This document shows positions 1 through 16,014 of a DNA stretch of 43,447 nucleotides, piece after piece. The stretch covers positions 1 through 43,447 of the IMG/VR virus record IMGVR_UViG_3300044617_000784. One strand, 5' to 3'. Position 1 is the stretch's first letter. Each line of letters starts with the position of its first letter. Position numbers and translations under genes: made by a program. This stretch comes from a virus. Under the pieces are notes generated by a model. The model had not been told where the DNA came from. It saw nothing but the letters and a program-made list of their open reading frames with translations, and made no database searches.

Positions 1-341
1 AATTGGAATGGTCCACCGTTATATAGCCATTCATCAAGTGAATTTGCTTCCCAGATAGGATAGAAGTGAAGACCAATAGCGTTGCTTGAAGGGACAACAG
101 CACCAGAGATGATGTTGTTTCCATACATGAGTGAACCAGCAACAGGTTCACGAATGCCATCGATGTCCACAGGGGGAGCACCGATGAAGGCGATGATGAA
201 ACAAATTGCTGCAGAAAGCAGTGTTGGAATCATCAGAACACCGAACCAACCAACATAAATGCGGTTATCGGTTGAAGTAACCCACTGGCAAAAAGATTCC
301 CATGGGTTGGTAAGATTGCGTTGTGCAATAGAAGCAGTCAT
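1..341 (-). CDS. psbA: Photosystem II D1 protein, 5' part only (runs off the window)
   Basis: Translating the minus strand from the ATG at 339-341 gives the D1 N-terminus: [17 protein letters not shown], then the [18 protein letters not shown] segment, the first transmembrane helix and [15 protein letters not shown]. About 113 residues are present; the rest lies beyond position 1. D1 is the fast-turnover core subunit of photosystem II. Cyanophage copies are known to keep electron flow going while host D1 is lost during infection. The gene has a long structured leader (342-503) and a consensus promoter at 510-538 whose -10 region is fused to a late-promoter-like motif. Identification is essentially certain; whether the full gene contains an intron cannot be seen here. 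Confidence 0.97.
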
Positions 342-364
342 TTTCGTTAAAGGGTAAGTAAAAG

Positions 365-416
365 TCCAGGGGGTTCTGGATGTTACATTATTCCCCACAC
401 CACCCTCCAGTGTGGG
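365..416 (-). promoter_or_regulatory. Two hairpins in the psbA leader
   Basis: The predicted psbA 5' leader (about 160 nt between the -10 box at 510-515 and the ATG) contains two short stem-loops. One has a 5-bp stem TCCAG/CTGGA (365-369 with 376-380). The other has a 7-bp stem CCCACAC/GTGTGGG (394-400 with 410-416, 9-nt loop). No strong Shine-Dalgarno is visible directly before the ATG. The hairpins may affect mRNA stability or translation; that role is inference. Confidence 0.4.
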
Positions 417-509
417 TATGAGAGACGCATTTATACTCCCATAGGTCTCGGTTAACGGGAGTTGCAAACATTAAAGAACTGTTACATTCCTTAACGTGTT
501 GTTGTATTT

Positions 510-538
510 ATCATAACACTGTGTTGAAATCCTGTCAA
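510..538 (-). promoter_or_regulatory. psbA promoter, sigma70-type, overlapping a late-promoter motif
   Basis: On the minus strand TTGACA (533-538) and TATGAT (510-515) are separated by exactly 17 nt. The -10 hexamer runs into GATAAATAC, so a T4-like late motif (ATAAATA) overlaps the same place at about 504-512. This would allow both early transcription by host polymerase and late transcription. Confidence 0.75.
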
Positions 539-547
539 GGGGTTTTC

Positions 548-555
548 ACTAAATA
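548..555 (+). promoter_or_regulatory. Late promoter motif ACTAAATA for the gene at 576
   Basis: The motif ACTAAATA ends exactly 20 nt before the ATG at 576. The same 20-nt distance is found before the starts at 21090, 31981, 32793 and 33663. The following CTTAAAA also resembles the leader at 32793. Confidence 0.6.
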
Positions 556-575
556 CTTAAAACTGCTTTCCCACG

Positions 576-767
576 ATGCCAAGGGAATGGAATACTCCCA
601 AAAGGGAACCTTGGAATGCACCGATACATAATATTTTAAAAGCAATAGATAATCACACTCAAGAATATTTCAAGAGTGGTGAAATTTGGCATTTGGAAAA
701 AGCAGATGCTTTAAGAAAATATCTTCACGAATTGAAGACTTGGATTCATAAACAAGAAGGACATTAA
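576..767 (+). CDS. Small unknown protein, 63 aa, plus strand
   Basis: A 63-residue charged, soluble protein with no signal peptide or membrane segment. It contains a central DNHTQEYF and a Lys/His-rich helical C-terminus (ADALRKYLHELKTWIHK). I do not recognise a family. It is one of only two genes on the plus strand and is supported by the late-promoter-like motif placed 20 nt upstream. Its stop overlaps the 3' end of the convergent lysozyme frame by 4 nt. The amphipathic helical end suggests a small binding or structural protein, but no function can be assigned. Confidence 0.65.
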   Translation: MPREWNTPKREPWNAPIHNILKAIDNHTQEYFKSGEIWHLEKADALRKYLHELKTWIHKQEGH

Positions 768-1240
768 GAACTCCAGAGTTTACCCTCAGCACCTCTTCTT
801 CTTAACAATCCAACTTCAACATTACTACCAGGATTGCGATACATTATTAAAGTATTAGGAACATTAGACCATTCTTTATTCCTAAGTACTCTACTTATGG
901 TATTAAAACCGGAAGACCCGTAAAAATTAGCACCAAGATTATAAGCAAAAGATAGAAGAGCTCCTTTTTGATTTTCATTCATTTCATTCCAGTGGGGAAT
1001 TTTTTCTAAAGAAGGAAGAAATTTACTTTCAATATCATACTCTAATAAATCATCTGCTTCGAGTTGAGTAATCTTTTCTCCCAATTTGAATGGTTGTCCA
1101 TTTCTTTTTCTGGTAGAACCCCAACCAATTGTGATTGGAAGATCTCCAGTTAGAGGATCAGGATAAGACTGCAAGTGACATCCTTCAAACTCTTTAATTA
1201 AATCGACACCACACTGAGGAATTTGTGATGTCTTATCTAC
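764..1240 (-). CDS. GH24 lysozyme module, read as the -1 frame extension of the upstream peptidase gene
   Basis: This frame encodes a phage lysozyme (glycoside hydrolase family 24, T4/P22 type) that cuts the MurNAc-GlcNAc bond. The fold signature reads DLIKEFEGC, QSYPDP, ITIGWGST, then NQKGALLSFAYNLG and LLRRRGAEGKLW. The only conventional in-frame start is the TTG at 1172-1174, but it lies after the catalytic Glu of EFEG, so a protein started there would be dead. Upstream the frame stays open to a TGA at about 1250-1252 with no ATG, GTG or TTG. Entry by a -1 slip at 1240-1246 adds 22 residues including the catalytic Glu, giving 158 residues from position 1240 to the stop at 764. The alternatives are a base error in the A6 run or initiation at a rare ATT codon. 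Confidence 0.85.
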   Translation of the reverse strand, partial: VDKTSQIPQCGVDLIKEFEGCHLQSYPDPLTGDLPITIGWGSTRKRNGQPFKLGEKITQLEADDLLEYDIESKFLPSLEKIPHWNEMNENQKGALLSFAYNLGANFYGSSGFNTISRVLRNKEWSNVPNTLIMYRNPGSNVEVGLLRRRGAEGKLWSS

Positions 1241-1246
1241 TTTTTT
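1205..1246 (-). promoter_or_regulatory. Probable programmed -1 ribosomal frameshift signal
   Basis: On the minus strand the last sense codons GTA AAA AAG of the peptidase gene contain the heptamer A AAA AAG in the right phase (1240-1246), directly before the TAG stop (1237-1239). A 7-nt spacer follows (1233-1239), then a 9-bp stem (GACATCACA at 1232-1224 with TGTGGTGTC at 1213-1205, one G-U pair) closed by a 10-nt loop. A AAA AAG is the heptamer used by E. coli dnaX, and this stem distance is typical for -1 frameshifting. A slip joins the peptidase to the lysozyme frame. Confidence 0.75.
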
Positions 1247-1938
1247 ACATCAAAGATTCTACCCCATCCAGTTTTATCTCTTCCATTTTCCAACCAACGA
1301 TGGGTAAGATCAGATCTCTTATATACAGCACCTTTACCGTTGGTTACTGGTCCAGTGTATCCATCATTCAATGATCCATAAGGATCATTTACAATATAAT
1401 CATCACCTTTCTTACCAATCACAACTACCATGTGTCCGCCTGTGGGATTAGATAAAGTCCCCCGATGAAGAATACCAATAACAACAGGTCTTCCAGCGGC
1501 AAGCTCACGATCAAGATCAGCAAAAGAAAGATTGTAACTAAAGTGTGATTTGATACCGTAAGAGTCCAGAACTTTTGTCTGAACTGTGTGGTCAGTCGTA
1601 TCACCGACTGAGAAAACTTTTCTAACGTAGGCATCATCGCCTTTAGGTCCTACTAGAGTGCCAGGTTTGAAATACTCTAATACCATAGCACAGGAAGAGG
1701 AATTACAGGTTCTGTTTGCGTCTCTGTAATTATCTGTCTGTGGAAAATAAGGAACGTTGAGAACTCCAGGAACTGTTGGTTCTGCTTTTGTTCTATAAAT
1801 TCTTACCCAATTAGATTCATCTTCAAGTAAATCTGGTTCTCTACTAGCAAGATCTACTTCAAGTTGTTCAACCGCAGCAACGTGCTTTGGGTTTTTTGGA
1901 TCATAATGTAAAAAGAAATTATGGAGATCTATTCTCAT
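1237..1938 (-). CDS. C39-like cysteine peptidase module of the lysin
   Basis: 233 residues. The second half is a papain-like peptidase of the C39_2 type: Q67 (oxyanion hole), C78 in TCNSSSCAMVL matching the usual CGPASLAMVL, H169 in GGHMVVVIG and D185 in VNDPYG. The first 55 residues are an acidic helical lead-in. Such domains cut peptide bonds, so cleavage of peptidoglycan cross-links is the likely role given the lysozyme directly behind. The ORF terminates at TAG right after the slippery heptamer, so two products are expected: this 233-residue peptidase and a 391-residue peptidase-lysozyme fusion. There is no signal peptide, so release would need a holin. Two AATAAATA late motifs stand 6 and 22 nt before the ATG. 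Confidence 0.75.
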   Translation of the reverse strand: MRIDLHNFFLHYDPKNPKHVAAVEQLEVDLASREPDLLEDESNWVRIYRTKAEPTVPGVLNVPYFPQTDNYRDANRTCNSSSCAMVLEYFKPGTLVGPKGDDAYVRKVFSVGDTTDHTVQTKVLDSYGIKSHFSYNLSFADLDRELAAGRPVVIGILHRGTLSNPTGGHMVVVIGKKGDDYIVNDPYGSLNDGYTGPVTNGKGAVYKRSDLTHRWLENGRDKTGWGRIFDVKK

Positions 1939-1944
1939 CGTTAT

Positions 1945-1968
1945 TATTTATTCGACCATCTATTTATT
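1945..1968 (-). promoter_or_regulatory. Late promoter motifs for the lysin gene (two copies of AATAAATA)
   Basis: Minus-strand AATAAATA occurs at 1961-1968 (22 nt before the ATG) and again at 1945-1952 (6 nt before it). The distal copy is the better placed. The pair follows directly on the T-tract of the terminator at 1972-1994. Confidence 0.55.
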
Positions 1969-1971
1969 AAA

Positions 1972-1994
1972 AAAGGAGGGATAAACCCTCCTTT
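1972..1994 (-). terminator. Rho-independent terminator after hli
   Basis: A perfect 9-bp stem AAAGGAGGG/CCCTCCTTT (1972-1980, 1986-1994) with a 5-nt loop, followed on the minus strand by a T-rich stretch. It ends the hli/ferredoxin transcript. Confidence 0.8.
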
Positions 1995-2000
1995 ATAAAT

Positions 2001-2108
2001 TTACCAGATTCCTGGAATTATCTGACCTGTCAGGGCATAAGATCCCATAGCAGCAACGATACCAATCATCGCTGCCCAACCATTAATGCGTTCTGCTCTT
2101 TCGTTCAT
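2001..2108 (-). CDS. hli: High-light-inducible protein, short form (35 aa)
   Basis: The minus strand encodes [20 protein letters not shown] followed by MGSYALTGQIIPGIW. This is the Hli/ELIP single helix: E-R-x-N-G-x-x-A-M-x-G chlorophyll-binding signature, then the Y-ALTGQ turn typical of cyanophage Hli. Hli proteins bind chlorophyll and carotenoid and protect photosystems under excess light. Its ATG overlaps the TGA of the upstream gene (ATGA), so translation is coupled to the ferredoxin transcript. It is close to the minimum length for the family. Confidence 0.93.
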   Translation of the reverse strand: MNERAERINGWAAMIGIVAAMGSYALTGQIIPGIW

Positions 2109-2335
2109 TTGTTTTCTCCTTGATAGGGGTGTTTTTGTTTAAGTTCTGGGTCTGGATTACAGACCATTTTTTCTTTGATAGGTTTAATTACAATAAACTT
2201 ATCATTCTTGAGAGTGCCAGCAATCTTGACTTCTAGTTCTACATTTCGATCCCAAGCACCACTGTCAATCAATTCATGAAGGGCAATTGAGAATTGACCC
2301 AGCATATCGACGGAAGATGGTTGAATTGCTGTCAC
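2105..2335 (-). CDS. Small unknown protein between ferredoxin and hli (76 aa)
   Basis: I place the start at the GTG (2333-2335) that overlaps the ferredoxin stop as GTGA, which matches the coupled style of this operon. The frame is open further upstream but would then overlap ferredoxin by 43 nt. The protein is mixed alpha/beta: a helical [17 protein letters not shown], then beta-rich [21 protein letters not shown], and a polar tail ending HPYQGENK. No family recognised. Its place inside a ferredoxin-hli transcript suggests an accessory role in the photosynthesis block, but this is inference only. Confidence 0.65.
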
Positions 2336-2631
2336 AGGTTCTCGTTCTCTTCCTGTTCGGTAACAATTACACAATCACTTGTAGGATAAGCAACACAAGT
2401 GAGGACCCAACCCTCTGCTTGTTGCTCATCATCAAGGAATGATTGTTCTTCGTTATCGACTGTACCAGAGATGAGTTTTCCAACACAGGTGGAACAAGCA
2501 CCTGCTTTACACGATGAAGGGAGGTCAACACCTGCCTCTTCTGCTGCTTCCAAGATGTATTGGTCATCGGCACATTCAATAGTAGTTTCTGTACCATCAG
2601 GAGATTGAAGAGTGACATTAAAAATGGTCAT
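2332..2631 (-). CDS. petF: Plant-type [2Fe-2S] ferredoxin
   Basis: 99 residues, the normal length for a cyanobacterial PetF. The cluster ligands are C41, C46, C49 (CKAGACSTC) and C79 (VLTC). It carries electrons from photosystem I to FNR, ribonucleotide or thioredoxin systems, and phycobilin reductases; cyanophage ferredoxins are known partners of phage bilin reductases such as PebS/PcyA. The ATG overlaps the TAA of the 28-aa membrane peptide (TAATG), so the two are translationally coupled. The C-terminus ends in an unusual acidic EQEENENL extension. Confidence 0.95.
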
Positions 2632-2717
2632 TAGTAAGTCTCACAAAGTTTTTCTACGGAAATTGCCAACAAAACAAAGAAGGCAACAGATGTTATTGTA
2701 AAGATAATTGGGGTCAT
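2631..2717 (-). CDS. 28-residue single-span membrane peptide coupled to ferredoxin
   Basis: The minus strand from the ATG at 2715-2717 encodes [20 protein letters not shown] followed by VEKLCETY. That is one clean transmembrane segment with a short polar tail containing a Cys. Its stop overlaps the ferredoxin start by one base (TAATG). It resembles the tiny subunits of photosystems or cytochrome b6f in size and topology, but I cannot match it to PetN, PsbM, PsbT or PsaM by sequence. It could be a phage version of such a subunit or a membrane tether for ferredoxin; both are guesses. Confidence 0.6.
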
Positions 2718-2726
2718 AGTCAAGTA

Positions 2727-2936
2727 TCAAACTACTCCAAAGAAGAGGTTGCCAGTGAGAGCATAAGAAATAGCCCCAGCAACAATACCGACCATAGCCC
2801 AACGTCCATTCATTTTCTCCGCTTTCTCAGCATATGGTTCGATACCATAACGATCAAGGTCTTCCTTGGTCATATACATCGAAGGTTCTTTAGCAAACAT
2901 ATTCATTTGCCCGAACTCATTTTTAGTAACAGTCAT
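2727..2936 (-). CDS. hli: High-light-inducible protein, long form (69 aa)
   Basis: The C-terminal half has the Hli helix: EKAEKMNGRWAMVGIVAGAI followed by SYALTGNLFFGVV. The N-terminal 35 residues (MTVTKNEFGQMNMF..., MYMTKEDLDRYGIEPYAEKA) are a stromal extension found in longer Hli proteins. It binds pigment and protects photosystem II during repair, consistent with nearby psbA. It is the first gene behind the strong promoter at 2962-2990 and likely the first gene of an hli-peptide-ferredoxin-unknown-hli transcript ending at 1972. Confidence 0.95.
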   Translation of the reverse strand: MTVTKNEFGQMNMFAKEPSMYMTKEDLDRYGIEPYAEKAEKMNGRWAMVGIVAGAISYALTGNLFFGVV

Positions 2937-2961
2937 TATCTTTATTAAGATTTACAACAAC

Positions 2962-2990
2962 AGTATATAGTAAAAAAAGAGGGGTGTCAA
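2962..2990 (-). promoter_or_regulatory. Consensus promoter of the hli-ferredoxin operon, laid over the porin terminator
   Basis: Minus-strand TTGACA (2985-2990), a 17-nt spacer, then TATACT (2962-2967). The -35 hexamer covers the loop and part of the stem of the terminator at 2979-2996, and the terminator T-tract is the spacer. Confidence 0.85.
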
Positions 2991-2996
2991 CCCCTC
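2979..2996 (-). terminator. Porin terminator
   Basis: A 7-bp stem GAGGGGT/ACCCCTC (2979-2985, 2990-2996) with a 4-nt loop, followed on the minus strand by seven T. It lies 30 nt behind the porin stop codon. Confidence 0.85.
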
Positions 2997-3026
2997 CTTA
3001 AGATTTTGTTTAGATTTGCTGACTTA

Positions 3027-4490
3027 TCAGAACTTGAAGGTGGTCTGAATTACACCACCCCAGTTAGAGGAATTGTCTGCAAGACGTTGGTTGTCACTAG
3101 CATAAAAGATAGCGGGAGTAATGCTGATGTTGTCAGATACTTGATACTTGTAGAAGATCTCAAGCATCGTTGCTTTCTCAAGGTTTTCACCAGTAGGTGC
3201 TTGACCGATAGCAACACCAGCAGAGTTACCATCAACAAATACATCTTCCCACTGAAGACCAGCAAACCAAGACTGACTGTTGGTAGCATCACTAGGAGTA
3301 CCACTTACAGTATTCCAACCATAACCAGCAGAGATGGAAGGTGCCCAACCAGATTGGGTGGGTTGCCAGTATGCGTTCACAGCATAACCGTTAGAGGTTT
3401 GACCAGGAACCAGAGTACCAGAAGCACCGTCCAGACCGTTATAGGTACGAACACGAGTGCCTTCAGTACCATAACGATAACCAAATGCAGCACCCCAGTT
3501 AGTGCCACGATAACCGATTTGTGCCAGGGTGTTGAGAGCACCAGAACGATCAAACTCACCAGTTGCACTATCGCTACCGTTTTGGGCAACATAGTTTACA
3601 CCAGCAACAAGACCTTTTTTGCCGTACTGAACACCGAAACCAGAACCAGTTGCCTTGTTATAAACACCAGGAGTACCAGCAACTTGGAAGAAGTCAAGAA
3701 TGTTGGACTTGTAAGCAGTAGGCAACCAAGCAATCTCAGTATTACGAACAAGAGCACCAGCAGTAAGAGTGGTAGTGTTATTGAACGCAGGGAACTGATA
3801 GAACAGACGGTCGATAACTACGTTGTTACCAACTTCACTTACAGTGTTGTCTGCTTTGTCCAGTTTGAATACTGAAGAACTAGAACCAAAAGGATTGCTG
3901 CTGAAGTTAGATGAACGCAGACGAGTACGAAGAAGATCCTTACCAGTAAACGAGGTATCCAGATTCAGACGCAGATCGTAGTTGAATGCAGTACGAGTTG
4001 CATCACCACTTTTGGTTTGATAATTATCAACACCACCGATCACGAAGTTTGCTTCACCACGCAGTTTGGTAGTGGTGGAGAATTGTTGTGCCTCAAGTGT
4101 AGTAACTTGTGCTTCCAGTTTATCTACACGACCACGAATAACAGCAAGTTCTTGTGCAAATTCTGCCTGAAGACGCTTCAGTTCATCGGTAACTTCAGTC
4201 ACACGATCAAGGCAAGCATTCAGAAGTGCTGCTGCCTCATAACGGGTCATCGCACTACCACCACCAAAGGTGCCGTTGGGATAACCAGCAACGCAACCAT
4301 AACGTTCTACAAGGTTACTGAGTGCCTGATATGCCCAATCGGTGGGACGAACATCAGAAAATTGTGTGACACTTGTAACCTGCTCGGAGGAATATTGGTT
4401 GACCCCATTCATATTAAGGTCTGCCGCCATCGCAGCAGGAGCAACCATTCCCAGAGCAACAGGTGCAAGCATCAGTTGTTTGAGTTTCAT
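3027..4490 (-). CDS. Cyanobacterial-type outer-membrane porin (SLH + OprB barrel)
   Basis: 487 residues, full length for the Synechococcus SomA/SomB family. It has a signal peptide ending ...APAAMA-A (residues 1-22), one SLH domain at about 43-95 (FSDVRPTDWAYQALSNLVER, then GYPNGTFGGG and MTRYEAAALLNACL), and a coiled coil at about 100-137 (LKRLQAEFAQELAVIRGRVD...). An OprB-type beta-barrel follows to the end, closing with the terminal aromatic signature TTFKF. SLH binds the peptidoglycan-linked layer and the barrel forms a pore for small solutes. It has its own consensus promoter (4558-4586) and terminator, so it is a single-gene unit. Likely taken from a host. It may change permeability, replace a receptor or help exclude other phages; the choice among these is inference. 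Confidence 0.92.
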   Translation of the reverse strand: MKLKQLMLAPVALGMVAPAAMAADLNMNGVNQYSSEQVTSVTQFSDVRPTDWAYQALSNLVERYGCVAGYPNGTFGGGSAMTRYEAAALLNACLDRVTEVTDELKRLQAEFAQELAVIRGRVDKLEAQVTTLEAQQFSTTTKLRGEANFVIGGVDNYQTKSGDATRTAFNYDLRLNLDTSFTGKDLLRTRLRSSNFSSNPFGSSSSVFKLDKADNTVSEVGNNVVIDRLFYQFPAFNNTTTLTAGALVRNTEIAWLPTAYKSNILDFFQVAGTPGVYNKATGSGFGVQYGKKGLVAGVNYVAQNGSDSATGEFDRSGALNTLAQIGYRGTNWGAAFGYRYGTEGTRVRTYNGLDGASGTLVPGQTSNGYAVNAYWQPTQSGWAPSISAGYGWNTVSGTPSDATNSQSWFAGLQWEDVFVDGNSAGVAIGQAPTGENLEKATMLEIFYKYQVSDNISITPAIFYASDNQRLADNSSNWGGVIQTTFKF

Positions 4491-4550
4491 AGATTTGTTT
4501 TGTTTGTACTATAGGACAAAGATTAAGAATTACAACAGAATTCTTAAGTA

Positions 4551-4586
4551 CTTATTTAGTATAAGGGATTACTTTGAGGGTGTCAA
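4551..4586 (-). promoter_or_regulatory. Porin promoter, sigma70-type with overlapping late motif
   Basis: Minus-strand TTGACA (4581-4586) and TATACT (4558-4563) are 17 nt apart. The -10 box runs into CTAAATAA (4552-4559), a late-promoter variant. The -35 box covers the stop codon of the preceding glycosyltransferase gene. Confidence 0.8.
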
Positions 4587-5380
4587 GTGTTCGGTGAGGG
4601 AACCGAACTCTCCACAACTCTACCAAGATAAGGATCATAATCCATCAATTCATCAATACTTAATTGGGCACCTTTCTGACTCCAGAAGTTCATCTGACCA
4701 TCATAGTTTCCTCTATGGAATGCATCGATATGTTCAGGGTGAATAGAAGATCCCAATTCAATTCGATAAAGAAGAAGAGGAAGACTATAGGTATTACCAG
4801 AGTTGTAAATCAAATCATCAGCAACAGGTCTTGGTTTAACTCCATTATCCAGTTTATACTTATCACCTCTTACATGAAGACGCAGTAATTTCTCTGCATG
4901 ATGACGAGTAATAATATAGCAAGCAGTGGAAAACTCATTCACAAATCTCTTATGAACTTTGATGTGAATATCTCCTGTGCAAATGATTGCAATCTGAACT
5001 ACATCCCAATCATAAGGAATGCGACAATAAAAATCATCCCAAGTAAAGTTCCAAAACCTTACAAGATCTAAATTACAATCATCTTCCATAATGATTGCAT
5101 AAGGAGAATCAGAAGTTTCATACCAGTGTTTGATAGCCTTCAGGTGAGATGTAACACATCCAATCTCACCAGAAGACATCATCTCAGGATACCTACCTTT
5201 GATGATGTCACTTAAGTCATCTTCTCTACCATCATATGCAGAGATGCGAGTATAGTTTTCAATTTCCCAGTATTTAAACTGGTCTTCCATATACTCTCTT
5301 CTTTCTGGTTGCCCGTCAAGATTGAGATAATAGATGGGTCCAAAGTTTTTAAGTTTAAATGTTGATTTGTTTTTATCCAT
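4583..5380 (-). CDS. Glycosyltransferase family 25 (LPS/LOS type)
   Basis: 265 residues with the GT25 pattern: IYYLNLDGQPERREYM near the N-terminus, GEIGCVTSHLKAIKHW at about 71-86, and the metal-binding acidic EDD at 99-101 (YAIIMEDDCNLD). GT25 enzymes move galactose or other sugars onto lipooligosaccharide. It is the last gene of the 12-gene envelope operon; its start overlaps the stop of the GT15-like gene (TAATG). The donor and acceptor cannot be read from the sequence. No signal peptide, so it acts in the cytoplasm on lipid-linked or nucleotide sugars. Confidence 0.85.
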   Translation of the reverse strand: MDKNKSTFKLKNFGPIYYLNLDGQPERREYMEDQFKYWEIENYTRISAYDGREDDLSDIIKGRYPEMMSSGEIGCVTSHLKAIKHWYETSDSPYAIIMEDDCNLDLVRFWNFTWDDFYCRIPYDWDVVQIAIICTGDIHIKVHKRFVNEFSTACYIITRHHAEKLLRLHVRGDKYKLDNGVKPRPVADDLIYNSGNTYSLPLLLYRIELGSSIHPEHIDAFHRGNYDGQMNFWSQKGAQLSIDELMDYDPYLGRVVESSVPSPNT

Positions 5381-6168
5381 TAGACTGTATAAACTGCACC
5401 GTGCTGATATGTAAAACCTTTAACTGAAATAACATGTTCTGGTTCCATGAGAAGATTTACTCCAAGATATTTGATCGGAGCATCACCCCACCTCTTGGTA
5501 TAAAACCCACCAGTTTTATCCAATTCATTATAGAATCTCATGTATTCACTTGTCAAGAACCATGACACTTTACCTAATTCAAAATTAGTATAGAACATCA
5601 TTCCCTCTTCAATAAAGTTTTCTGGAATGAGTTCATTAACTGTTTGCCACAACCCTTCAATTACTTTTGGATTATCTTTTTGAATAGCAGGTTCGATATA
5701 TCCATAGTAACATCCAACCTCTTCTGCCCACTTAAAAATATCATAGTTAAGTGGAGTATGAATAAAGGAATCAGTATCTAATCTCAAGTAATAATCATAT
5801 TCCTTTATAACACTATAATTGTAAAGTTCTCCAGAGAAGAATCTACACATATGACGATATCCCATAGAGAATCCAGGATGACCCCAATCCACAGGACCAT
5901 TTCCATGAGTAGGATGTGGAAAGAACTCTGGAATTTGATCTAAGATTTCTTGAGGATAATCAGGGACTTTAAACTCTATGGTCTCATACCTAAGATTTAA
6001 GTTTGTCTGGATCTTAGATTTATATTCCTCAAAAGATTCTTCACAAAATACCAATACATCAGTACTAGTTGTATAAGGTATAAGATTTTCTTCTACTAAT
6101 CTTAGAGATTTATTAAAATCTTCTATGTCTTGATCAGATGATCTAACTAGGTAAACTATACAATTCAT
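5380..6168 (-). CDS. Glycosyltransferase resembling GT15 (Kre2/Mnt1 alpha-mannosyltransferase)
   Basis: 262 residues from the ATG that overlaps the upstream stop (ATGA at 6165-6168); a GTG 12 nt earlier is possible. Family hallmarks are visible in order: YDYYLRLDTDSFI (DxD-like nucleotide-sugar site), YGYIEP, MFYTNFELGKVSWF and DKTGGFYTKRWGDAPIKYL. The TNFE and DKTGGFY-RWGDAP blocks are those of fungal GT15 mannosyltransferases, which lie in the Golgi; here there is no membrane anchor. It would transfer mannose, or a related GDP-sugar, onto a growing glycan. This agrees with the GDP-mannose-linked enzyme at 14871. The family is uncommon outside fungi, so transfer is likely. Confidence 0.8.
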   Translation of the reverse strand: MNCIVYLVRSSDQDIEDFNKSLRLVEENLIPYTTSTDVLVFCEESFEEYKSKIQTNLNLRYETIEFKVPDYPQEILDQIPEFFPHPTHGNGPVDWGHPGFSMGYRHMCRFFSGELYNYSVIKEYDYYLRLDTDSFIHTPLNYDIFKWAEEVGCYYGYIEPAIQKDNPKVIEGLWQTVNELIPENFIEEGMMFYTNFELGKVSWFLTSEYMRFYNELDKTGGFYTKRWGDAPIKYLGVNLLMEPEHVISVKGFTYQHGAVYTV

Positions 6169-7556
6169 AACATCTGCCACTCTTTATACGGAATCATATT
6201 GTTACTGTGAGTTTGAGTAAAAGATTGTGGATAAACTACCTTATCATTTGGTTGATTAGGATCTAGAAATGCAGCCCAGAAACTAAAAGTAGATACATGT
6301 AGAATATGATATTCGCATTCTACCATCTTCTTAAGTGATTGGAAAGCATCACCGACAAAGATCTCAAAGTTTTGTACGAAGTTACTTCTAAACCAACTCA
6401 ACTTATTCCTTGCCATTCGATTATCATCAGAGAAGATATAAACCGTACTATCAATAGGCATGGTTGATAGTGCCTTCAAATAAAACTCATCGTCCACATA
6501 ACCATTTACATGATCATCTGCGGGGCGTGTGCAGAATCTAAGATGAAGTGAAACTGTATTTGGTTTTGTATATGTTTCTACAGATAATTTTTCCCTTACA
6601 TATTCAAGTTGATCAACATCACCAAACCTAAACATATCATTTACAACAAACTTAGTATCAAAGTTTGCTTGCAAATTACCCATCCAATTTAAGTTTGGAA
6701 AACAAGAAGCAATATCCCTATGAGATCCATCATGACCACCTAATAATCTATCTGCATTATAGGATGAAGGATACTTACCTCCACCGTTCAGAAGATCCCA
6801 AGTTCCAAATTTTGGTTCTGGTAGATTAAACTTCTTACAGAAAGAAATAACTTCTGCCATTTGAAAAAGATTATTTCCCAACCCACCATGAAGTGTTGTA
6901 GTGATTGTTTCTTCTTTGAAATTAATTGGTAGTTGAAGTGCTTTAACTCCACCCTTACCAATATCAAGATTTATATCAAATATACTAAGACAATTTATCT
7001 GATATTCAGTATTGGAAAAGAACTCTGGAGCATCCACAATAACAAAGTTATTAGGATATTTTTCTTGCATTTCATTTGCAATTTGATAATACTCATCCCA
7101 ATATCTTTCAGTTGCTTCAAACTCATCCTTAGAATCACTCAGATCTGGAAACTGATCAACTGCATATCGATTATGCCCAACACCCATAGATCTATCCTTT
7201 ACATAACATGGATTACGATATCCCCATGAAGTTGCAAGAGATCTAATTGAATGTTCTCTTCTCCCTCTTAGACATAAAAATCTAATGTCTGGGTGAAGTT
7301 CGAGAAACTCTGGAATATATTTCAGATATGAATGAGTAATATTTGTAGTTGTATCCTGTAAAGAAACTCTGCGAAGTCTTTCTTCTTTTGATAAAGATTC
7401 CGAATCCCATATCAGTCCGTTCTCGTTCCATGTCTCGAAACTATTCTGATACTTCGGACCACCACCTTTATATTTGATTGACATAAAATTCTTGAGGATA
7501 TAATGAATCCTCAAGAATCCACATGCACCTGATCCAATAATATGAAACTTACTCAT
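6165..7556 (-). CDS. Fused sulfotransferase-like and GT11 fucosyltransferase-like protein
   Basis: 463 residues in two modules. Residues 1 to about 205 look like a sulfotransferase: N-terminal beta strand and P-loop-like HIIGSGACGFLRIH, a 3'-phosphate-binding stretch RFLCLRGRREHSIRSLATSW, and a C-terminal VIVDAPEFF strand. Residues from about 217 are GT11-like: TLHGGLGNNLFQMAEVISF, LHLRFCTRPADD (variant of the HxRRGD donor motif, where the second Arg is lost) and STFSFWAAFLDP. Together they suggest a bifunctional enzyme that adds fucose and sulfate to the same polysaccharide. The altered HxRRGD motif leaves doubt about transferase activity. It overlaps both neighbours, as do the other operon genes. 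Confidence 0.65.
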   Translation of the reverse strand: MSKFHIIGSGACGFLRIHYILKNFMSIKYKGGGPKYQNSFETWNENGLIWDSESLSKEERLRRVSLQDTTTNITHSYLKYIPEFLELHPDIRFLCLRGRREHSIRSLATSWGYRNPCYVKDRSMGVGHNRYAVDQFPDLSDSKDEFEATERYWDEYYQIANEMQEKYPNNFVIVDAPEFFSNTEYQINCLSIFDINLDIGKGGVKALQLPINFKEETITTTLHGGLGNNLFQMAEVISFCKKFNLPEPKFGTWDLLNGGGKYPSSYNADRLLGGHDGSHRDIASCFPNLNWMGNLQANFDTKFVVNDMFRFGDVDQLEYVREKLSVETYTKPNTVSLHLRFCTRPADDHVNGYVDDEFYLKALSTMPIDSTVYIFSDDNRMARNKLSWFRSNFVQNFEIFVGDAFQSLKKMVECEYHILHVSTFSFWAAFLDPNQPNDKVVYPQSFTQTHSNNMIPYKEWQML

Positions 7557-8364
7557 AAGACAATCCTCTTAGTTCATATTCCCAACGAACATCAGTATTC
7601 ATTCTTGGTGTTCCATCTGCTTCTATAATCTGCCCAACGAATATCCCATGTTCCATAGGTTCATGCTCTGGAAATGGACGACTATCTTGATGAGTTGGAT
7701 AGATTTCTCTAAGTTGATTATACACTTCTCTTTCGAGATAGTTGATTAATCCAACACCATAAGCATTTTGCCAGTGAACATGATCCCCTTCTTGGTATGT
7801 TGGTTGACCTACAATCTTAGAGTTTTTCCAGTGATCATGGCACAAGTGATCAAATTTAATCACAGGCCAAATTAAATTATGAAGAACAGTTTGATCATCT
7901 TCTCTTCTATTTGCAGATGGATTATCAAGATCTATTTTACCATATCGTTCATGAAATAACTTATTGTTTATACCAAACATGCCTGCCATGATGGAGTATC
8001 CATGATTATGACAATCTCTCATAAGATGAGTGGACTTATCAGATTGCATCCATTCATCAACTGCTCTGCGTTCTCTCCAACTTAATCTACTATCACAATC
8101 TCTACTAATCCAAAAGTCCACACAGTCATCGATGAATGGTCTAAATCTCCAATTTAAACCATCATAAGAATTATTTCTACGACAAATGAATACCTCAGCA
8201 TCATGATCCTTAAGTTGAGAAACGTATTCTTCGGGAACATCTTCAGCAACATAAAATCTTGCAATCCAATCTGGATAGATTTGTTTTGCAAGACGTGCGT
8301 TTTCTACTGCTCCAACACAATAAAGAGGATTATCACCAAAAAGACTAAACGTTATCAGACGCAT
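7549..8364 (-). CDS. Putative glycosyltransferase, unassigned family
   Basis: 271 residues from the ATG at 8362-8364 (MRLITFSLFGDNPLY...), which overlaps the methyltransferase gene by only 20 nt; the frame is open 99 nt further but that would overlap too far. The core has an acidic DCDSRLSWRERRAVDEW with HLMRDCHNHGYSIMAGMFG behind it, typical of GT-A-fold transferases that hold a metal and nucleotide sugar at a DxD site. The N-terminus IYPDWIARFYVAEDVP is also seen in such enzymes. I cannot name the CAZy family. Cytoplasmic, within the polysaccharide operon. Confidence 0.65.
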   Translation of the reverse strand: MRLITFSLFGDNPLYCVGAVENARLAKQIYPDWIARFYVAEDVPEEYVSQLKDHDAEVFICRRNNSYDGLNWRFRPFIDDCVDFWISRDCDSRLSWRERRAVDEWMQSDKSTHLMRDCHNHGYSIMAGMFGINNKLFHERYGKIDLDNPSANRREDDQTVLHNLIWPVIKFDHLCHDHWKNSKIVGQPTYQEGDHVHWQNAYGVGLINYLEREVYNQLREIYPTHQDSRPFPEHEPMEHGIFVGQIIEADGTPRMNTDVRWEYELRGLSYE

Positions 8365-8941
8365 ACCATGTTCCATAATAACAATCAGCACTGTGGAATC
8401 CCGACTCTGTTCCACCCTTAAAGATCTTACCAAAGTCACCAAGAACTTCAATAAAAGTTTCATCAGTAATTAAGTGTGGGTGTGCAGTGTCAACAGCACT
8501 TCCAATACTTTCAAAAACACGAATGATTTTAGAAGTTTTCTTTGCGATTTCTAATTGCTCTTGTGGATCAATCACATGCTGAATAACATTAAAAAACCAC
8601 GTCTCATCGATCTGCTCATCAATTTCCAAGTCTTCATAAGGAGCAGCAATAATTTCTACACCAATATCCTCATAATCCTTCCTAATTTCAACAGGCCATC
8701 GATCGATCAGAGGTTCAATCAGAATACCTCTTTTAAAATTTCCTTTAGTATGAAGAATAGATCCTCTTGGACCACCACCAACTTCTACAATAACCTTATC
8801 TTTAAAATCTTCCTCGTAGTTAATCTCAAGATACTTTGCAATAATCATAGATGCATGACTATATGCTTCCAATCTAAGATCTTGATGATGTGCAAATTCT
8901 GTGTCTTGGGCAATCTGCCACCGGTCCAAATCAATCTTCAT
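8345..8941 (-). CDS. Class I SAM-dependent methyltransferase
   Basis: 198 residues with a Rossmann methyltransferase core: motif I VIVEVGGGPRGS at about 50-61, motif II acidic ILIEPL, and motif IV-like ETWFFNVIQHVIDPQEQL, where the usual hxxxVLEHV becomes NVIQHV. A helix-rich lid precedes the domain. In this operon it most likely methylates a sugar of the surface glycan, but a small-molecule or protein target cannot be excluded. Start ATG overlaps the stop of the upstream GT2 gene by one base. Confidence 0.75.
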   Translation of the reverse strand: MKIDLDRWQIAQDTEFAHHQDLRLEAYSHASMIIAKYLEINYEEDFKDKVIVEVGGGPRGSILHTKGNFKRGILIEPLIDRWPVEIRKDYEDIGVEIIAAPYEDLEIDEQIDETWFFNVIQHVIDPQEQLEIAKKTSKIIRVFESIGSAVDTAHPHLITDETFIEVLGDFGKIFKGGTESGFHSADCYYGTWYASDNV

Positions 8942-9756
8942 TAAATCAATTCCCTATTTTCAATAATCCTTCGTGTATTTATTAGATCCTTATGACGGTC
9001 ATAAAAGATCTTTGTGTTTTTATGATGTGCTTTCAATAACCACGGAGCAGGAGATCCAGTTTCTACTCTGGTGCCTCCCCAAGAATCCTCACTTTCATAA
9101 TCAATCCAGTATGCACCAACAACTTTACCAAGTTCTTTATATGCACGATAGCAAAGATCATGATCATCCATATCTTGAGGAGCAAATGCTTCATCAAGAT
9201 AGTTAAGTTTCTTGAGATCTTCATGATCAATCATCAAAGGACCACGATTTACTGAGCAACGAACAGCAAATACATCTCTTGGAAGTCCTTGTTTCCTATC
9301 TGCATGATCAATATGATCTACAATATCACACCAACAAGTATCTAGATCCTCTTCCATTCCCAGGTGATTTGAGTTTGGATTTGAGATCCAGTTATGTGCA
9401 GTTCTTGAAGTTACTGCAAAGACATCATCAAATACTTTGAATGGTTTTTCCATTCTTACATTCCAACCTTTCTCTTTAATAATCATATCATCTTGAACGA
9501 TAATAATCTTATCACCCTTTGCTGCTTTCATTCCTAGATTATTTGCAGTTGTTTCAAAGACATCTGGTGCATAGATAAACTTTCTATTGACTGGAGTTCC
9601 GCTAAGAGTATCCCAGATAACTTTCTCAGAGTTATCAGTACACCCATCGATTACAACAATAAGTTCGTAAGGTTCTATCGTATTAAGAACGATACCTTCA
9701 ATTACCTTCTCAATTAACCACTCCTTATTATGAACGGTGAGAACTATACTATGCAT
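8941..9756 (-). CDS. Glycosyltransferase family 2
   Basis: 271 residues, GT-A fold of family 2. The N-terminus MHSIVLTVHNKEWLIEKVIE holds the nucleotide-binding strand, VIDGCTDNSEKVI is the D-G-C/S-T-D motif, KIIIVQDDM is the DxD-like metal site, and LDEAFAPQDMDDHDLCYRAY carries the catalytic ED-like acid. Such enzymes build O-antigen or capsule repeats one sugar at a time. It overlaps the next upstream gene by 8 nt. Sugar specificity cannot be read. Confidence 0.9.
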   Translation of the reverse strand: MHSIVLTVHNKEWLIEKVIEGIVLNTIEPYELIVVIDGCTDNSEKVIWDTLSGTPVNRKFIYAPDVFETTANNLGMKAAKGDKIIIVQDDMIIKEKGWNVRMEKPFKVFDDVFAVTSRTAHNWISNPNSNHLGMEEDLDTCWCDIVDHIDHADRKQGLPRDVFAVRCSVNRGPLMIDHEDLKKLNYLDEAFAPQDMDDHDLCYRAYKELGKVVGAYWIDYESEDSWGGTRVETGSPAPWLLKAHHKNTKIFYDRHKDLINTRRIIENRELI

Positions 9757-10483
9757 CTTTGATCCTCATCAAGAATGAATCAATTTCCCTACCAAAACCT
9801 TTTCCTCCTCTCTCATACCAATAATCATAATCACATTCCACATAGTTTCTATATTCCGGTCCACCAACAGTAAGTCCATCACGAATTGCAAGATTGGTTA
9901 AAACACTCTGGTCATTTCTATGAGAAACAAATCCAGGTAACTCATCACCAAGAACACTGGGTTCATTATTGATGATTTGATAATCAGTGCAATACTTCAA
10001 CCATTCAGAGACAACTCGAATAGATTCTTCACAAACTTTCCAAACTAAGAATCCAACTTCTAATTGATTGGAATCATGGTAGTCTGCTTCATCACAATCC
10101 ATTTTGATAAAGCAATCTCTCTTAGTATAGTGTCCATTCTTATTATTACCTACAAGCAATAGACATACATCATCTTCAGAAACTGTAGACTCAACATATG
10201 ATTTTAATCCAGGTGAGAACATATCTCCACAGTCACAGTAGATAATAAAGTCACCTTCATTACTATTTTTCATAGTATCTAAAATGATGTAAGGTTTCCA
10301 AATCCACCACCCAGCACCTATTGAATCATCTAAGATGGTTTGATTTTCTTTATAAAAATCTGTCTTATCTATCCACCATTTATTATAGGGATGGTGTATA
10401 AATCCTTCTCTATGAGTCTGGTGAAGAAACTTCTGTTGATCTGCAAACTTTTCATCTGCATAAGTTACAAGATGCCAATTCAT
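9749..10483 (-). CDS. Putative glycosyltransferase, unassigned family
   Basis: 244 residues. The pattern HLVTYADEKFADQQKFLHQT, then AGWWIWKPYIILDTM and FIIYCDCGDMF, is that of a poorly described group in polysaccharide gene clusters: a W-x-W-KP segment before an acidic D-x-G-D site. This resembles a GT-A nucleotide-sugar site. The C-terminal part has SHRNDQSVLTNLAI, also common near transferase active sites. No signal peptide. Named as a transferase by context and fold features only. Confidence 0.6.
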   Translation of the reverse strand: MNWHLVTYADEKFADQQKFLHQTHREGFIHHPYNKWWIDKTDFYKENQTILDDSIGAGWWIWKPYIILDTMKNSNEGDFIIYCDCGDMFSPGLKSYVESTVSEDDVCLLLVGNNKNGHYTKRDCFIKMDCDEADYHDSNQLEVGFLVWKVCEESIRVVSEWLKYCTDYQIINNEPSVLGDELPGFVSHRNDQSVLTNLAIRDGLTVGGPEYRNYVECDYDYWYERGGKGFGREIDSFLMRIKDA

Positions 10484-11361
10484 TTGATTCTCTCCTTCAC
10501 ATACTCCTGGTTTTCATAATACTCAATTAACTGTTCTTTAGTAAGATTCTTCAGGTATTCCCACAACTGGTTATTATTTTGCATATGAGGATTGTGATAC
10601 CAAGAATTCTGAGTTCTTTGATGTTCTAAGTGATATGCATGATTATCAACTCTACCAATATTATAACCCAAAACTTTCCATCTGTGATGTCTCTCTACAT
10701 CTTCTGGAGCATAAGCAATAAATCCTTCATTCTCCAAATACCCATCAATATAAACTTGACGATTAAAAAACTGAACCATTCCATATTCAGCCCAACCTAA
10801 TCCTTGATTACTGGGATAGTAAAAGAATCGATCATCAAAACAAGTGCAGTTATATCCAGAACCTATAAAACGAGAAACGAAATCATCATTCTCAAAGTTA
10901 TTCATATCTTCTTGGGTTTCAATCGTAAATCCAAGATTTACTTTCCTCTCTCCATGATTTCCAAAACGATAAGGATAAACAACATCATAATCTCCCTGAA
11001 GCATTTCAACTGCTTGAGTATAAGAATCTAATGGAAGAATAATATCAGTGTCGTAGTTCACTACAATCTCAGTAGATGCTTCCATCACCATATCGTTCAG
11101 AACTTTAGTTCGATGAAACGAATCATCTGTTCTTGTTTCTTCCTCAAAGATATGTCGGAGATTACTTGTATCGACTAACCTTTTGATAATTGGTAGTGCA
11201 TACTCTTCAAATCTATGTTCAGAATCAACTTCTTTGATGAGCACATTAGTATCAAAGTTATGAAGAAGATATGATGTTGTAAGGATTACATTACGAAGTC
11301 TATCTCCAGTATCAATCCTTAGAGGAATGATAAATGTAGTGTTCTTTAAATCAGTTTTCAT
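10480..11361 (-). CDS. Glycosyltransferase, GT2-like N-terminus with galactosyltransferase-type C-terminus
   Basis: 293 residues. N-terminal strand TTFIIPLRIDTGDRLRNVI and an acidic IVVNYDTDIILP give a family-2-like sugar-nucleotide site. The C-terminal half has GLGWAEYGMVQFFNRQVYI, then NEGFIAYAPEDVERHHRWK and HHAYHLEHQR-like ending. The G-x-E-D/PEDVE-x-x-R arrangement is that of the GT7/GT27 galactosyltransferase C-terminal domain that supplies the catalytic acid. Stop and start overlap neighbours by 4 and 11 nt. Confidence 0.75.
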   Translation of the reverse strand: MKTDLKNTTFIIPLRIDTGDRLRNVILTTSYLLHNFDTNVLIKEVDSEHRFEEYALPIIKRLVDTSNLRHIFEEETRTDDSFHRTKVLNDMVMEASTEIVVNYDTDIILPLDSYTQAVEMLQGDYDVVYPYRFGNHGERKVNLGFTIETQEDMNNFENDDFVSRFIGSGYNCTCFDDRFFYYPSNQGLGWAEYGMVQFFNRQVYIDGYLENEGFIAYAPEDVERHHRWKVLGYNIGRVDNHAYHLEHQRTQNSWYHNPHMQNNNQLWEYLKNLTKEQLIEYYENQEYVKERIK

Positions 11362-12160
11362 TAATCATTCTCCATTCTTCAGGAAACAAATCTTTTGTAG
11401 ACTTATCTATATTATTTGGACCAAACCATTTATTTGGATAGATAACTGTCTTATTTTTATTTTGAGATAACCAAGCACCCCACCAAGAGAATGTAGAGTT
11501 GGCAATAATATAATCAGAACACATGGACATTAAACACATATCAACGTAAGAATGACCTGTCTCAGCAACTAAAAACCTATCACTTTCAAATAATTTTTGT
11601 TGCTTACACCACTTAGGATCATCAGAAAATATAACTACCTGTCTATCAGAATCAAACTCTTTCAAAGCATTCTCATAATAACTCAAAGATAAGTTGTAAT
11701 GATTGCCAGAGTTAATCAAAAAATCTCCCCTACGAATATGTAAAGCAATAGGATTATCCAATAAGGGTTTTGCTTCTTCACATGCATCATAATACTCTTT
11801 CTTAAAGATAAAATCTTTTCGAATATCATCCTCTATGTGTTTAAAATACTTTTCACTTTGAAAATATCCAACTAAGGAAACTCCATCCGAACAGTTGTTA
11901 AACAAATCCTCATCAAAAGAAAAGTCTCTTTCACTACGAGCAGCATCTGCCAAGAGAAATCCAACACTATCTGGTTGGACCTCAAAGGCATCAAATAATT
12001 CAATTTTAAGAGTGTTTCCTAAAGAGTCTTTAACAGAATTATCATGTTGAGGAATAGTAAATTGATATCCTCTATTTCTTGCAACTCCTTTTACAGCAGC
12101 ATACTGAAACATCTGGTTTCCCAGTTGTCCCATTCTACCAAGATAGTTTAATCCAATCAT
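11351..12160 (-). CDS. GT11 alpha-1,2-fucosyltransferase-like protein
   Basis: 269 residues with all GT11 blocks: GRMGQLGNQMFQYAAVKG (motif near the N-terminus), ALHIRRGDFLINSG (HxRRGD motif that binds GDP-fucose) and NSTFSWWGAWLSQN near the C-terminus. Family members move L-fucose, or in some cases L-galactose, from the GDP-sugar to galactose. It overlaps its paralogue at 12135 by 26 nt. The intact HxRRGD motif suggests it is active. Confidence 0.9.
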   Translation of the reverse strand: MIGLNYLGRMGQLGNQMFQYAAVKGVARNRGYQFTIPQHDNSVKDSLGNTLKIELFDAFEVQPDSVGFLLADAARSERDFSFDEDLFNNCSDGVSLVGYFQSEKYFKHIEDDIRKDFIFKKEYYDACEEAKPLLDNPIALHIRRGDFLINSGNHYNLSLSYYENALKEFDSDRQVVIFSDDPKWCKQQKLFESDRFLVAETGHSYVDMCLMSMCSDYIIANSTFSWWGAWLSQNKNKTVIYPNKWFGPNNIDKSTKDLFPEEWRMINEN

Positions 12161-12977
12161 CGGGAAGTAAGTCTTTCGTGTCGTTATCTTTTAATAGTTG
12201 AGGACCAAACCAAGGATCAGGTGCGACCACATGATTTGTACGAGGATTTTGTAACCAAGCTCCCCACCAACTTAAAGTACTTGGTGAAATAATAGCACCA
12301 TTACATAAACTCATCAAGCACAAATCAGTATATGGAATAAATGAATTGCGATAAACACCATCACCTTCCATACACTTGTGAGAATATTGTTCTATATTTT
12401 CATTAATCAAGAATCTCTCTCCAGAGAAAAACTCTTGTTCTTTGCACCAAGCAACATCATCACTACAGATAAGAACCATAACATCATCATCAAAATACTC
12501 AAGTGCCTTTGAGTAGTAATCAAATGTTGGAACCGGATGAAGATGTTCTCTACCTACATTATCACCACGACGAACATGGAGAAAGATAACCTTTTCAAAC
12601 TTTTCGATAAATTCTCTACAAGGTTTTTGAATCTCCTCAATAAATTCAAAGTCTTCACGGATTTCATCTTCAATATGTTTGAAATATTTCTCACTCTGAA
12701 GATATCCATCCAAGTTCATATTATCTTGAAAGGTATTGAACAAGTCTTCATCAAAATGAAAATGAGCCTCATCCCGAGTAGGATAAGGCACCTGACCAAC
12801 ATTCTTTAAATGTTTGAGTTTGAATGGATGATGCATTCCATAGTTTGCAGTTCTTGCACTATCTTCAGGAATGCACCATTCATATCCATGTTTTGCTGCA
12901 ATACCACGGAGAGCAGCATATTGGAAGAGTTGATTTCCAAATCTTCCATTTACTCCCAGTCGATTATATCCAATCAT
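12135..12977 (-). CDS. GT11 alpha-1,2-fucosyltransferase-like protein (paralogue)
   Basis: 280 residues with GVNGRFGNQLFQYAALRG, FLHVRRGDNVGREHLHP and SPSTLSWWGAWLQNP, the same three GT11 blocks as the neighbour at 11351. The two adjacent genes share many short stretches (for example GYLQSEKYFKHIED and EDLFN in both), so they look like an old tandem duplication that has since diverged. Together with the GT11-like half at 6165 there are three such domains in the operon. This fits a glycan with several fucose-like branches. Confidence 0.9.
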   Translation of the reverse strand: MIGYNRLGVNGRFGNQLFQYAALRGIAAKHGYEWCIPEDSARTANYGMHHPFKLKHLKNVGQVPYPTRDEAHFHFDEDLFNTFQDNMNLDGYLQSEKYFKHIEDEIREDFEFIEEIQKPCREFIEKFEKVIFLHVRRGDNVGREHLHPVPTFDYYSKALEYFDDDVMVLICSDDVAWCKEQEFFSGERFLINENIEQYSHKCMEGDGVYRNSFIPYTDLCLMSLCNGAIISPSTLSWWGAWLQNPRTNHVVAPDPWFGPQLLKDNDTKDLLPDDWIKLSW

Positions 12978-14128
12978 AGATTTACTACAAAGTATGGTTC
13001 AGTAATGTTTTCTTGTTTATCTACAAACTTAACTCTTTCGCCATAAGAAGTGATCATGTAATCATAGATTTGATCAGTAACTTTCTTATCATTATGAATG
13101 TAGACAGTATATCCACGATCAAGAAGATCTAAACACAAACGATATTGCTGACTTTCTGTGAGAATATCCGTTCCTTTCTTATAAGTGATAGAATCAAAGT
13201 AAAAAGGTTTCTTATTTGCATTCATTTTCTCAAAATAATCACATACAAATGTTGCATGTTGATTATTAATCTCGTCAGTTACCGTACCAAGATTATATTC
13301 TAATCCAACCTTCTTGGCAAATGCAGCAAAGGATCTATTATCTCTAGGAAGACAAGGACCACCATATCCAAATCCATACCCAAGATATTTTCTACCAATA
13401 CGACTATCTGTTCCAACAGCAGTCAACACAGTACTAACTTCATCCCCACAACCAGCATGATGGAGAACATCTCCAAGCATGTTTGCATAACTGATCTTGG
13501 TAGTTAAGAAGCAGTTAATAGCAATCTTAGTGATCTCTGCTGCTGTTGTAGACATAGAACAAACAATTGCACGAGTTGTTTGAATCTTTTCATACAACCT
13601 TCTAATATCAGAAATAATCTGATCATTATCTGAAAATGGATCTGCTCCAAGAAGAACCATGTCAGCAGTACGAAGATCATTAATGATTGATCCTTGTGCG
13701 ATGAACTCTGGATTGTAGAAAACTTTTACATTACTTGGCAGTTGCTTTTTAAAGTTGTCACAATCTCCAGGATTGGTAGTGCATCCAACAACAAAATATT
13801 TTGCTTTAGTTACGTCTTGGAAATCATCAACAACTTGCCAAACTGAAGAGACATCATAAGAACCATCTTCAAGAGAAGGAGTTGCAACAAGAGTGTAAAT
13901 CAGATCACACTCATCAATCACTTCTTTGTTGTTGGTTGTTGCTCTAAAGTTTTTAGCAACCTTGAGAAGGTTTTCTACTTCTGGTTCATGGGTCTTGATT
14001 TTTCTTTCGTTCAAATCATTCACATAATCCTCTCGGATATCTGAAACAAGAACGTCATACCCTGCTGCTTCACACAACAGGGCAAAACAAATACCAAGTC
14101 TGCCAGCACCAATTACGCCAATTTTCAT
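12974..14128 (-). CDS. UDP-glucose/GDP-mannose dehydrogenase family enzyme
   Basis: 384 residues. N-terminal NAD-binding Rossmann MKIGVIGAGRLGICFA, substrate segment YNPEFIAQGSIINDLR, central TKIAINCFLTTKISYANMLG, and the catalytic Cys259 in GYGFGYGGPCLPRDNRSF. The enzyme oxidises a nucleotide-sugar alcohol to the acid in two NAD+-dependent steps, giving UDP-glucuronate or a similar uronate. The C-terminal domain (residues from about 290) is somewhat short. Lies between an NAD synthetase and two GT11 genes; stop and start overlap by 4 nt (ATGA). Confidence 0.9.
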   Translation of the reverse strand: MKIGVIGAGRLGICFALLCEAAGYDVLVSDIREDYVNDLNERKIKTHEPEVENLLKVAKNFRATTNNKEVIDECDLIYTLVATPSLEDGSYDVSSVWQVVDDFQDVTKAKYFVVGCTTNPGDCDNFKKQLPSNVKVFYNPEFIAQGSIINDLRTADMVLLGADPFSDNDQIISDIRRLYEKIQTTRAIVCSMSTTAAEITKIAINCFLTTKISYANMLGDVLHHAGCGDEVSTVLTAVGTDSRIGRKYLGYGFGYGGPCLPRDNRSFAAFAKKVGLEYNLGTVTDEINNQHATFVCDYFEKMNANKKPFYFDSITYKKGTDILTESQQYRLCLDLLDRGYTVYIHNDKKVTDQIYDYMITSYGERVKFVDKQENITEPYFVVNL

Positions 14129-14865: not shown

Positions 14866-14870
14866 GATAA

Positions 14871-15923: not shown

Positions 15924-15950
15924 AAAGAATTAATAATCTCTGTACTATCT

Positions 15951-15979
15951 ATTATACAAAAAAAGAGGGGTCATGTAAA
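15951..15979 (-). promoter_or_regulatory. Consensus promoter of the 12-gene envelope operon, interleaved with a terminator
   Basis: Minus-strand TTTACA (15974-15979), 17-nt spacer, TATAAT (15951-15956), 28 nt before the ATG of the epimerase. The -35 hexamer is the loop of the terminator at 15963-15987, and the spacer is its 3' arm plus T-tract. Confidence 0.85.
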
Positions 15980-15987
15980 CCCCTCTT
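15963..15987 (-). terminator. Terminator of the upstream small-gene transcript
   Basis: An 8-bp perfect stem AAGAGGGG/CCCCTCTT (15963-15970, 15980-15987) with a 9-nt loop and a T-tract on the minus strand. It ends the transcript of the small genes at 16015-16863. Confidence 0.85.
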
Positions 15988-16014
15988 CGGTAACTCAGGC
16001 TCGCCACCAATTCT

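Follow-up and report, generated by a model that had tools for sequence, protein, structure and literature searches.

We report that a phage infecting freshwater cyanobacteria, represented by a stretch of 43,447 nucleotides (IMG/VR record IMGVR_UViG_3300044617_000784, positions 1-43,447; referred to as the window), encodes a porin that is, on balance, probably the viral copy of a pstS-associated host porin subfamily, serving phosphate or anion intake as an outer-membrane partner of phage PstS. Computational analysis of the window and its viral and host relatives established the domains of the protein, its intactness, purifying selection, a single phage clade, the adjacency of porin and pstS, and a conserved Pho-box-like element.

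Phage pstS is a textbook example of viruses feeding their host, and phosphate's first barrier, the outer membrane, has so far been absent from this picture. If viruses commonly carry a porin linked with pstS and with Pho-box-like regulation, their capture of nutrients would reach as far as the cell surface, and this raises the testable question of whether the virus alters outer-membrane phosphate permeability. The new part is the porin's company with pstS, of which we found no description for phages in the open-access literature; the porin family itself is an ordinary host family in an unusual place.

The porin gene, its predicted fold and its transcription signals

The gene (P0001) is located at positions 3027-4490 on the minus strand and encodes 487 aa, which confirms the intact, full-length SLH/OprB porin proposed in the first-pass annotation; the plus strand of the same interval is interrupted by stops. 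Specifically, Pfam places an SLH domain at residues 44-87 (PF00395, 3.9e-9) and an OprB domain at residues 103-487 (PF04966, 8.1e-14), and NCBIfam NF033921 (por_somb) covers residues 38-487 (6.8e-88, 295.4 bits versus a curated cut-off of 100). The N-terminus resembles, by eye, a signal peptide. In the AlphaFold2 model a stalk helix (residues 102-135) is followed by 16 long strands with pLDDT values mostly >80, and the C-terminal F487 ends this 16-strand OprB-type barrel; residues 1-101, including the SLH part, are poorly modelled (pLDDT <50). A PHROGs search with the porin gave no usable family, and a PDB sequence search matched its SLH part alone (8bym, OmpM).

The promoter and terminator previously ascribed to the gene were also recovered. 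A strong sigma-70-like promoter, TTGACA-17-TATACT, is present at 4586-4558 on the minus strand, 68-96 nt upstream of the gene, and the sequence behind the gene holds a terminator-like hairpin with a T-run (2999-2976, minus strand). The TTGACA of this hairpin doubles as the -35 of a second sigma-70-like promoter with 17-nt spacing (2990-2962, minus strand), aimed at an Hli-like ORF, a feature not stated in the earlier annotation. Promoter-like sites overall are not more common than in shuffled sequence (64 versus a shuffle mean of 68.2), and the sites with 11 or 12 of 12 promoter positions in window 1-20000 are all on the coding strand (10/10). On the minus strand, terminator hairpin and T-run bases double as a sigma-70-like promoter with 17-nt spacing for the gene that follows, at both 2962-2999 and 15951-15988.

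Occurrence in viruses and selection

The first-pass annotation regarded a phage porin as unusual, which holds among phage isolates, where six records of the phage collection match, and fails in IMG/VR, where 153 stretches match the peptide pattern and 150 of these encode a porin relative; the best 80 of the 150 were used. A looser IMG/VR scan gave at least 557/599 among the matches listed, some of them possibly remoter SLH proteins. Two of the six phage records match at ≥80% query coverage, both S-SRM01, and no full-length relative was detected in the collection outside this Synechococcus phage. The S-SRM01 'porin' (QPX48248.1) is 71% identical, full length and of the same clade; it differs in having a tRNA/Dps context and no adjoining pstS. 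The word 'porin' is absent from the main text of the S-SRM01 paper (PMC8557907). The proteins of S-CREM1 and S-PM2 were rejected as the same gene, having an SLH domain and lacking an OprB match; named 'iron uptake porin' (L083:2935-3813) and 'S-layer protein' (L084:3932-4771), respectively, they represent barrel-less SLH phage proteins.

The window, 101 IMG/VR loci and S-SRM01 together provide 103 phage copies. Decay, named beforehand as a sign that would speak against a working porin, was seen in none of the 103, which range between 487 and 492 aa, in scans that retain the best matches and hence are biased toward intact copies. Most have a TTGACA or TTGACT -35 at approximately 88-126 nt upstream of the porin. 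Moreover, the median pairwise dN/dS among 83 distinct phage porin genes is 0.15, indicating purifying selection; values by domain are 0.14 for the barrel, 0.09 for the SLH domain and 0.33 for the stalk, and by model class 0.12 for strands and 0.16 for outer loops (L4 alone 0.48; L7 not computable). Being of host origin, intact and conserved in phages, the porin is a candidate auxiliary metabolic gene.

Phylogeny and host origin

A comparison with host porins had been suggested. In a quick tree (124 rows) all 74 dereplicated phage porins fall into one clade (SH-aLRT 99) that is nested within the picocyanobacterial porins (42 rows). After 15 further genomes of one host genus (Cyanobium-type) had been added, a careful tree with 45 rows was computed; it took 17 of the 74 phage rows and 11 host subfamily rows, including G035 and G036 and omitting the G037 fragment as well as L229, whose branch is very long. 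Here the phage rows group with a host subfamily situated mostly upstream of pstS (support 97/89); joining them instead to a close paralog without pstS costs 3.4 log units, and the AU test does not reject this placement (p 0.116). The FACHB-13342 porin, at first a candidate for sole sister of the phage clade, lost that position once the 15 genomes were included.

The phage porin is up to 66% identical to the Cyanobium-type porins. Since residues 1-36 are nearer to other host porins (up to 70%; the single subfamily row that could be compared gives 50%), a mosaic origin is possible. The quick tree implies 14 changes of genome context and 16 of pstS, both upper-side figures that include unsupported forks.

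Two records merit mention here. L143:2914-3381, on a contig in a cyanobacterial MAG, shows 77% identity to residues 1-153 and may represent either phage sequence sorted into the bin of its host or a further host porin, and L095, titled Bifidobacterium breve, holds picocyanobacterial porins, its organism label probably being wrong.

Genomic context and the link with pstS

Neighbouring genes were compared across the 103 viral loci, with tRNAs read in 30 of them. In the window the immediate upstream neighbour is a glycosyltransferase family 25 (GT25) gene (4583..5380, minus strand; Pfam 1e-13), which ends 92 nt upstream of the porin. Downstream, both on the minus strand, are the 69-aa Hli-like ORF (2727..2936) and a PetF-like 2Fe-2S ferredoxin (2332..2631; Pfam Fer2 4.9e-24). 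The former, which as a rule follows the porin in GT25-context loci, we take to be Hli from its motif; NCBIfam yielded nothing better than a match below cut-off. The adjoining polysaccharide operon noted earlier is thus found in the window and does not generalize: the porin is placed behind GT25 in 53/103 loci (window included) and behind tRNA-Gly in 42/103, with 8 unassigned, and its association with polysaccharide genes reflects the site it occupies.

The surface-sugar cluster of the window (4583-15923) comprises GT25, GT15, GT2, three GT11 matches, UDP-glucose/GDP-mannose dehydrogenase and an epimerase, and has an NAD synthase gene inside it. Eight tRNA genes are present at 16939-19212, those for tRNA-Ser and tRNA-Val flanking a Dps/ferritin-like gene; it is a comparable site that the porin occupies in the 42 relatives with tRNA-Gly.

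Of the 103 viral loci, 88 have at least 1.5 kb of downstream sequence and can be assessed; 31 of these carry pstS within 1.5 kb downstream of the porin and on the same strand and 57 lack it, whereas in the other 15 the contig ends. The downstream gene was identified by NCBIfam TIGR00975 (264 bits), and it is present at both genome sites (17/45 in the GT25 context, 10/35 in the tRNA-Gly context and 4/8 unassigned). Among 12 long viral contigs pstS is present in 6, each time near the porin and once as an edge fragment. The viral pstS of L171 has an internal stop, and for L039 and L040 the porin is positioned approximately 3 kb further along the same gene cluster. In some loci a small secreted-looking protein is encoded between porin and pstS (L045:9507-9833 and relatives, 7 members), for which NCBIfam gave no match. 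The window copy has no pstS beside the porin.

The same pair occurs in hosts. In the Cyanobium-type genus the porin is followed by pstS in 11/16 genomes, 244-411 bp apart match to match, a count that includes G037 with its fragmentary porin match. Two of the 13 members of the host subfamily are without a demonstrated pstS link (G036, none on the contig; G035, contig ends), and among the 11 host genomes first examined the porin is near pstS in two (G001, 275 bp; G010, approximately 3 kb). The phage PstS rows separate from the host rows and the nearest host PstS is not the porin-linked one; therefore, the pair need not share one acquisition.

Pho-box-like elements

A Pho-box-like element, CTTAACCAAAYCTTAGTGGACT, precedes pstS in 28/30 viral loci (22 or more of 30 matches), and its unit CTTAACCA matches the published cyanobacterial Pho-box unit PyTTAAPyPyT/A (PMC10976474). 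The gap between porin and pstS was read in 9 of the 30 loci. In eight of these nine it is approximately 146 nt and holds a terminator, then an element like CTTAACCAAAYCTTAGTGGACTTTAAGG and then a -10; in the ninth (437 nt) the same element is placed further down. Terminator and promoter sites within the gap argue for separate porin and pstS transcripts and against a simple operon.

A 22-nt model trained on 28 of the 30 phage pstS promoters placed 16 of 101 porin upstream regions above 99.5% of the background, and there are porin promoters with a CTTAACCAAATCTTAGTTGACA element. Of these 16 loci, 15 are without pstS and L176 has both. Scanning 1.30 Mb of viral loci at ≥13 bits gave 53 matches, 52 of them beside the porin, and none in shuffled loci; pstS accounts for 29, the region ahead of the porin for 16 and that directly after it for 7, with 1 elsewhere, the 53 including kin sequences many times over and hence not representing independent events. 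A pstS-type site is present right behind the porin in 6 of the 15 loci whose contig ends early.

Only this phage-trained model, circular for pstS and not for the porin, split signal from background; a generic Pho-box scan of the porin upstream regions did no better than shuffles. In 12 host stretches the 22-nt model gave no match of ≥4 bits, while the generic scan predicted a candidate repeat in the porin-pstS gap of 2/11 host stretches (L246 and L261). In a published test, Pho boxes predicted in phages proved unreliable, binding by PhoB often not being observed (PMC10976474). Neither pstS nor a Pho-box match was found in 42 of the 88 assessable loci. As the window also has neither (no match of ≥8 bits with the 22-nt model), a phosphate role in its own phage would follow from descent only.

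Pore and outer loops

Eight basic positions (R144, R174, R190, K209, K212, K279, R328 and R339) are present in 74/74 phage rows and in 83-100% of the 12 rows from the subfamily, compared with 0-62% of the 50 rows from other hosts; the close paralog has most of them too. R348 is found in 100% of the phage rows and 92% of the subfamily, versus 0% among the 8 close-paralog rows and 14% in other hosts, and so sets phage and linked rows apart from the paralog. These basic positions are in strands and inner loops, their lumen side being judged by strand alternation and not by coordinates. Strands and L3 together carry a median net charge of +6 in phages, +7 in linked hosts, +5 in the paralog and +3 in others. 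Structure comparison, for which Foldseek was also used, ranked OprB first (Z 25.6, rmsd 3.3, 313 aligned), followed by many porins, among them the anion-selective Omp32 (Z 23.0), the phosphate porin OprP (Z 22.6) and OprO; general porins have the same fold, and the structure therefore says nothing on selectivity.

Compared by alignment, the outer loops total 138 aa in 74/74 phage rows versus 118-224 aa in 42 host rows (median 190), and 144-174 aa in the pstS-linked close host relatives. Set against hosts, the loops are shorter than in most and show no diversification. Being fixed in length and non-diversifying (dN/dS 0.16), the loops speak against a receptor arms race, and the altered receptor and the exclusion of competitors put forward in the first-pass annotation are left without support.

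Proposed function and alternative explanations

Nutrient uptake, also put forward there, gains specific support for phosphate from the pstS link, the Pho-box-like elements and the tree. We suggest that the phage would transcribe the porin from its own sigma-70-like promoter, and that the protein, once exported, would form a 16-strand barrel in the outer membrane, with the SLH stalk tying it to the cell wall. The pore, with its conserved arginines and lysines, might keep inorganic anions, chiefly phosphate, entering the periplasm, where PstS (the host's, or the phage's where carried) would pass phosphate to the ABC importer; the imported phosphate could feed phage DNA synthesis, to the benefit of the phage. 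More tentatively, and with somewhat less than even confidence, we picture in freshwater cyanophages a phosphate intake module that spans outer membrane and periplasm, an SLH porin selective for phosphate or anions and often joined by pstS, in which the porin is expressed from a strong phage promoter, a host PhoB site drives pstS or, in other phages, the porin, and the loops are short and fixed since the porin appears only in infected cells and so escapes selection by other phages.

The phage might instead replace host porins, as channels and wall tethers, after host shut-off, irrespective of solute. We consider such general envelope upkeep rather unlikely: the SLH domain is the most constrained one (dN/dS 0.09) and near-identical to that of hosts (median 86-88%), and OmpM is reported to join tether and channel in one protein (PMC10628300), but the association with pstS and Pho-box-like elements would be left unexplained, as would the choice of one subfamily where each host genome carries 2-11 porin matches. 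Exclusion or receptor change, with a host porin on which competing phages depend being displaced or masked by that of the phage, is quite improbable; loops below those of most hosts (138 versus a median of 190) and the porin Lc of the enteric phage PA-2 would suit this, yet the loops are constant in total length, their dN/dS (0.16 overall, L4 alone 0.48, L7 not computable) shows no diversification, and close host relatives already have shortish ones.

Iron uptake, after the NCBIfam name 'iron uptake porin', draws on the NF033921 match, on the ferredoxin gene downstream in the window and on a Dps/ferritin-like gene ≤3.5 kb downstream in 21 of the 72 loci with >3.5 kb of downstream sequence. In addition, a Synechocystis iron porin gene is reported to be under PhoB control (PMC11126600), which shows that regulation by phosphate is compatible with iron transport. 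We nevertheless judge iron uptake very improbable: NF033921 spans this porin type at large, and the window has its Dps gene at the tRNA site (18278-18715), a long way from the porin. The chance that the gene is a passenger moved by recombination without benefit seems slight in the extreme; it switches site repeatedly on the tree (the 14 changes, unsupported forks included), but no copy among the 103 is broken and dN/dS is 0.15.

The preferred reading, a porin for phosphate or anion intake, can also be set beside known systems. With cyanobacterial SomA/SomB-type porins (NF033921) the window porin shares SLH domain, coiled coil, barrel and terminal Phe; it differs from those of hosts in being phage-borne, in its short, length-constant loops and in forming its own clade. 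A tie to phosphate stress would be shared with the Prochlorococcus PhoE-type porin, which is reported to rise >15-fold when phosphate is low (PMC3349580). A porin of Prochlorococcus AG-363-O16, at most a candidate PhoE or candidate ortholog of the phage porin, is encoded approximately 3 kb from pstS and is only 43% identical to the phage porin. Like the cyanophage auxiliary metabolic gene pstS (101 phage records match a PstS query), the porin would act in phosphate acquisition, in the outer membrane whereas PstS acts in the periplasm. Veillonella OmpM likewise unites SLH stalk and porin barrel in one protein, but is bacterial and distant in sequence. Finally, the Lc/NmpC protein of PA-2 is an enteric porin of a temperate phage and another case of a phage-encoded outer-membrane porin; unlike Lc, the window porin is assigned by Pfam to OprB and to no enteric porin family.
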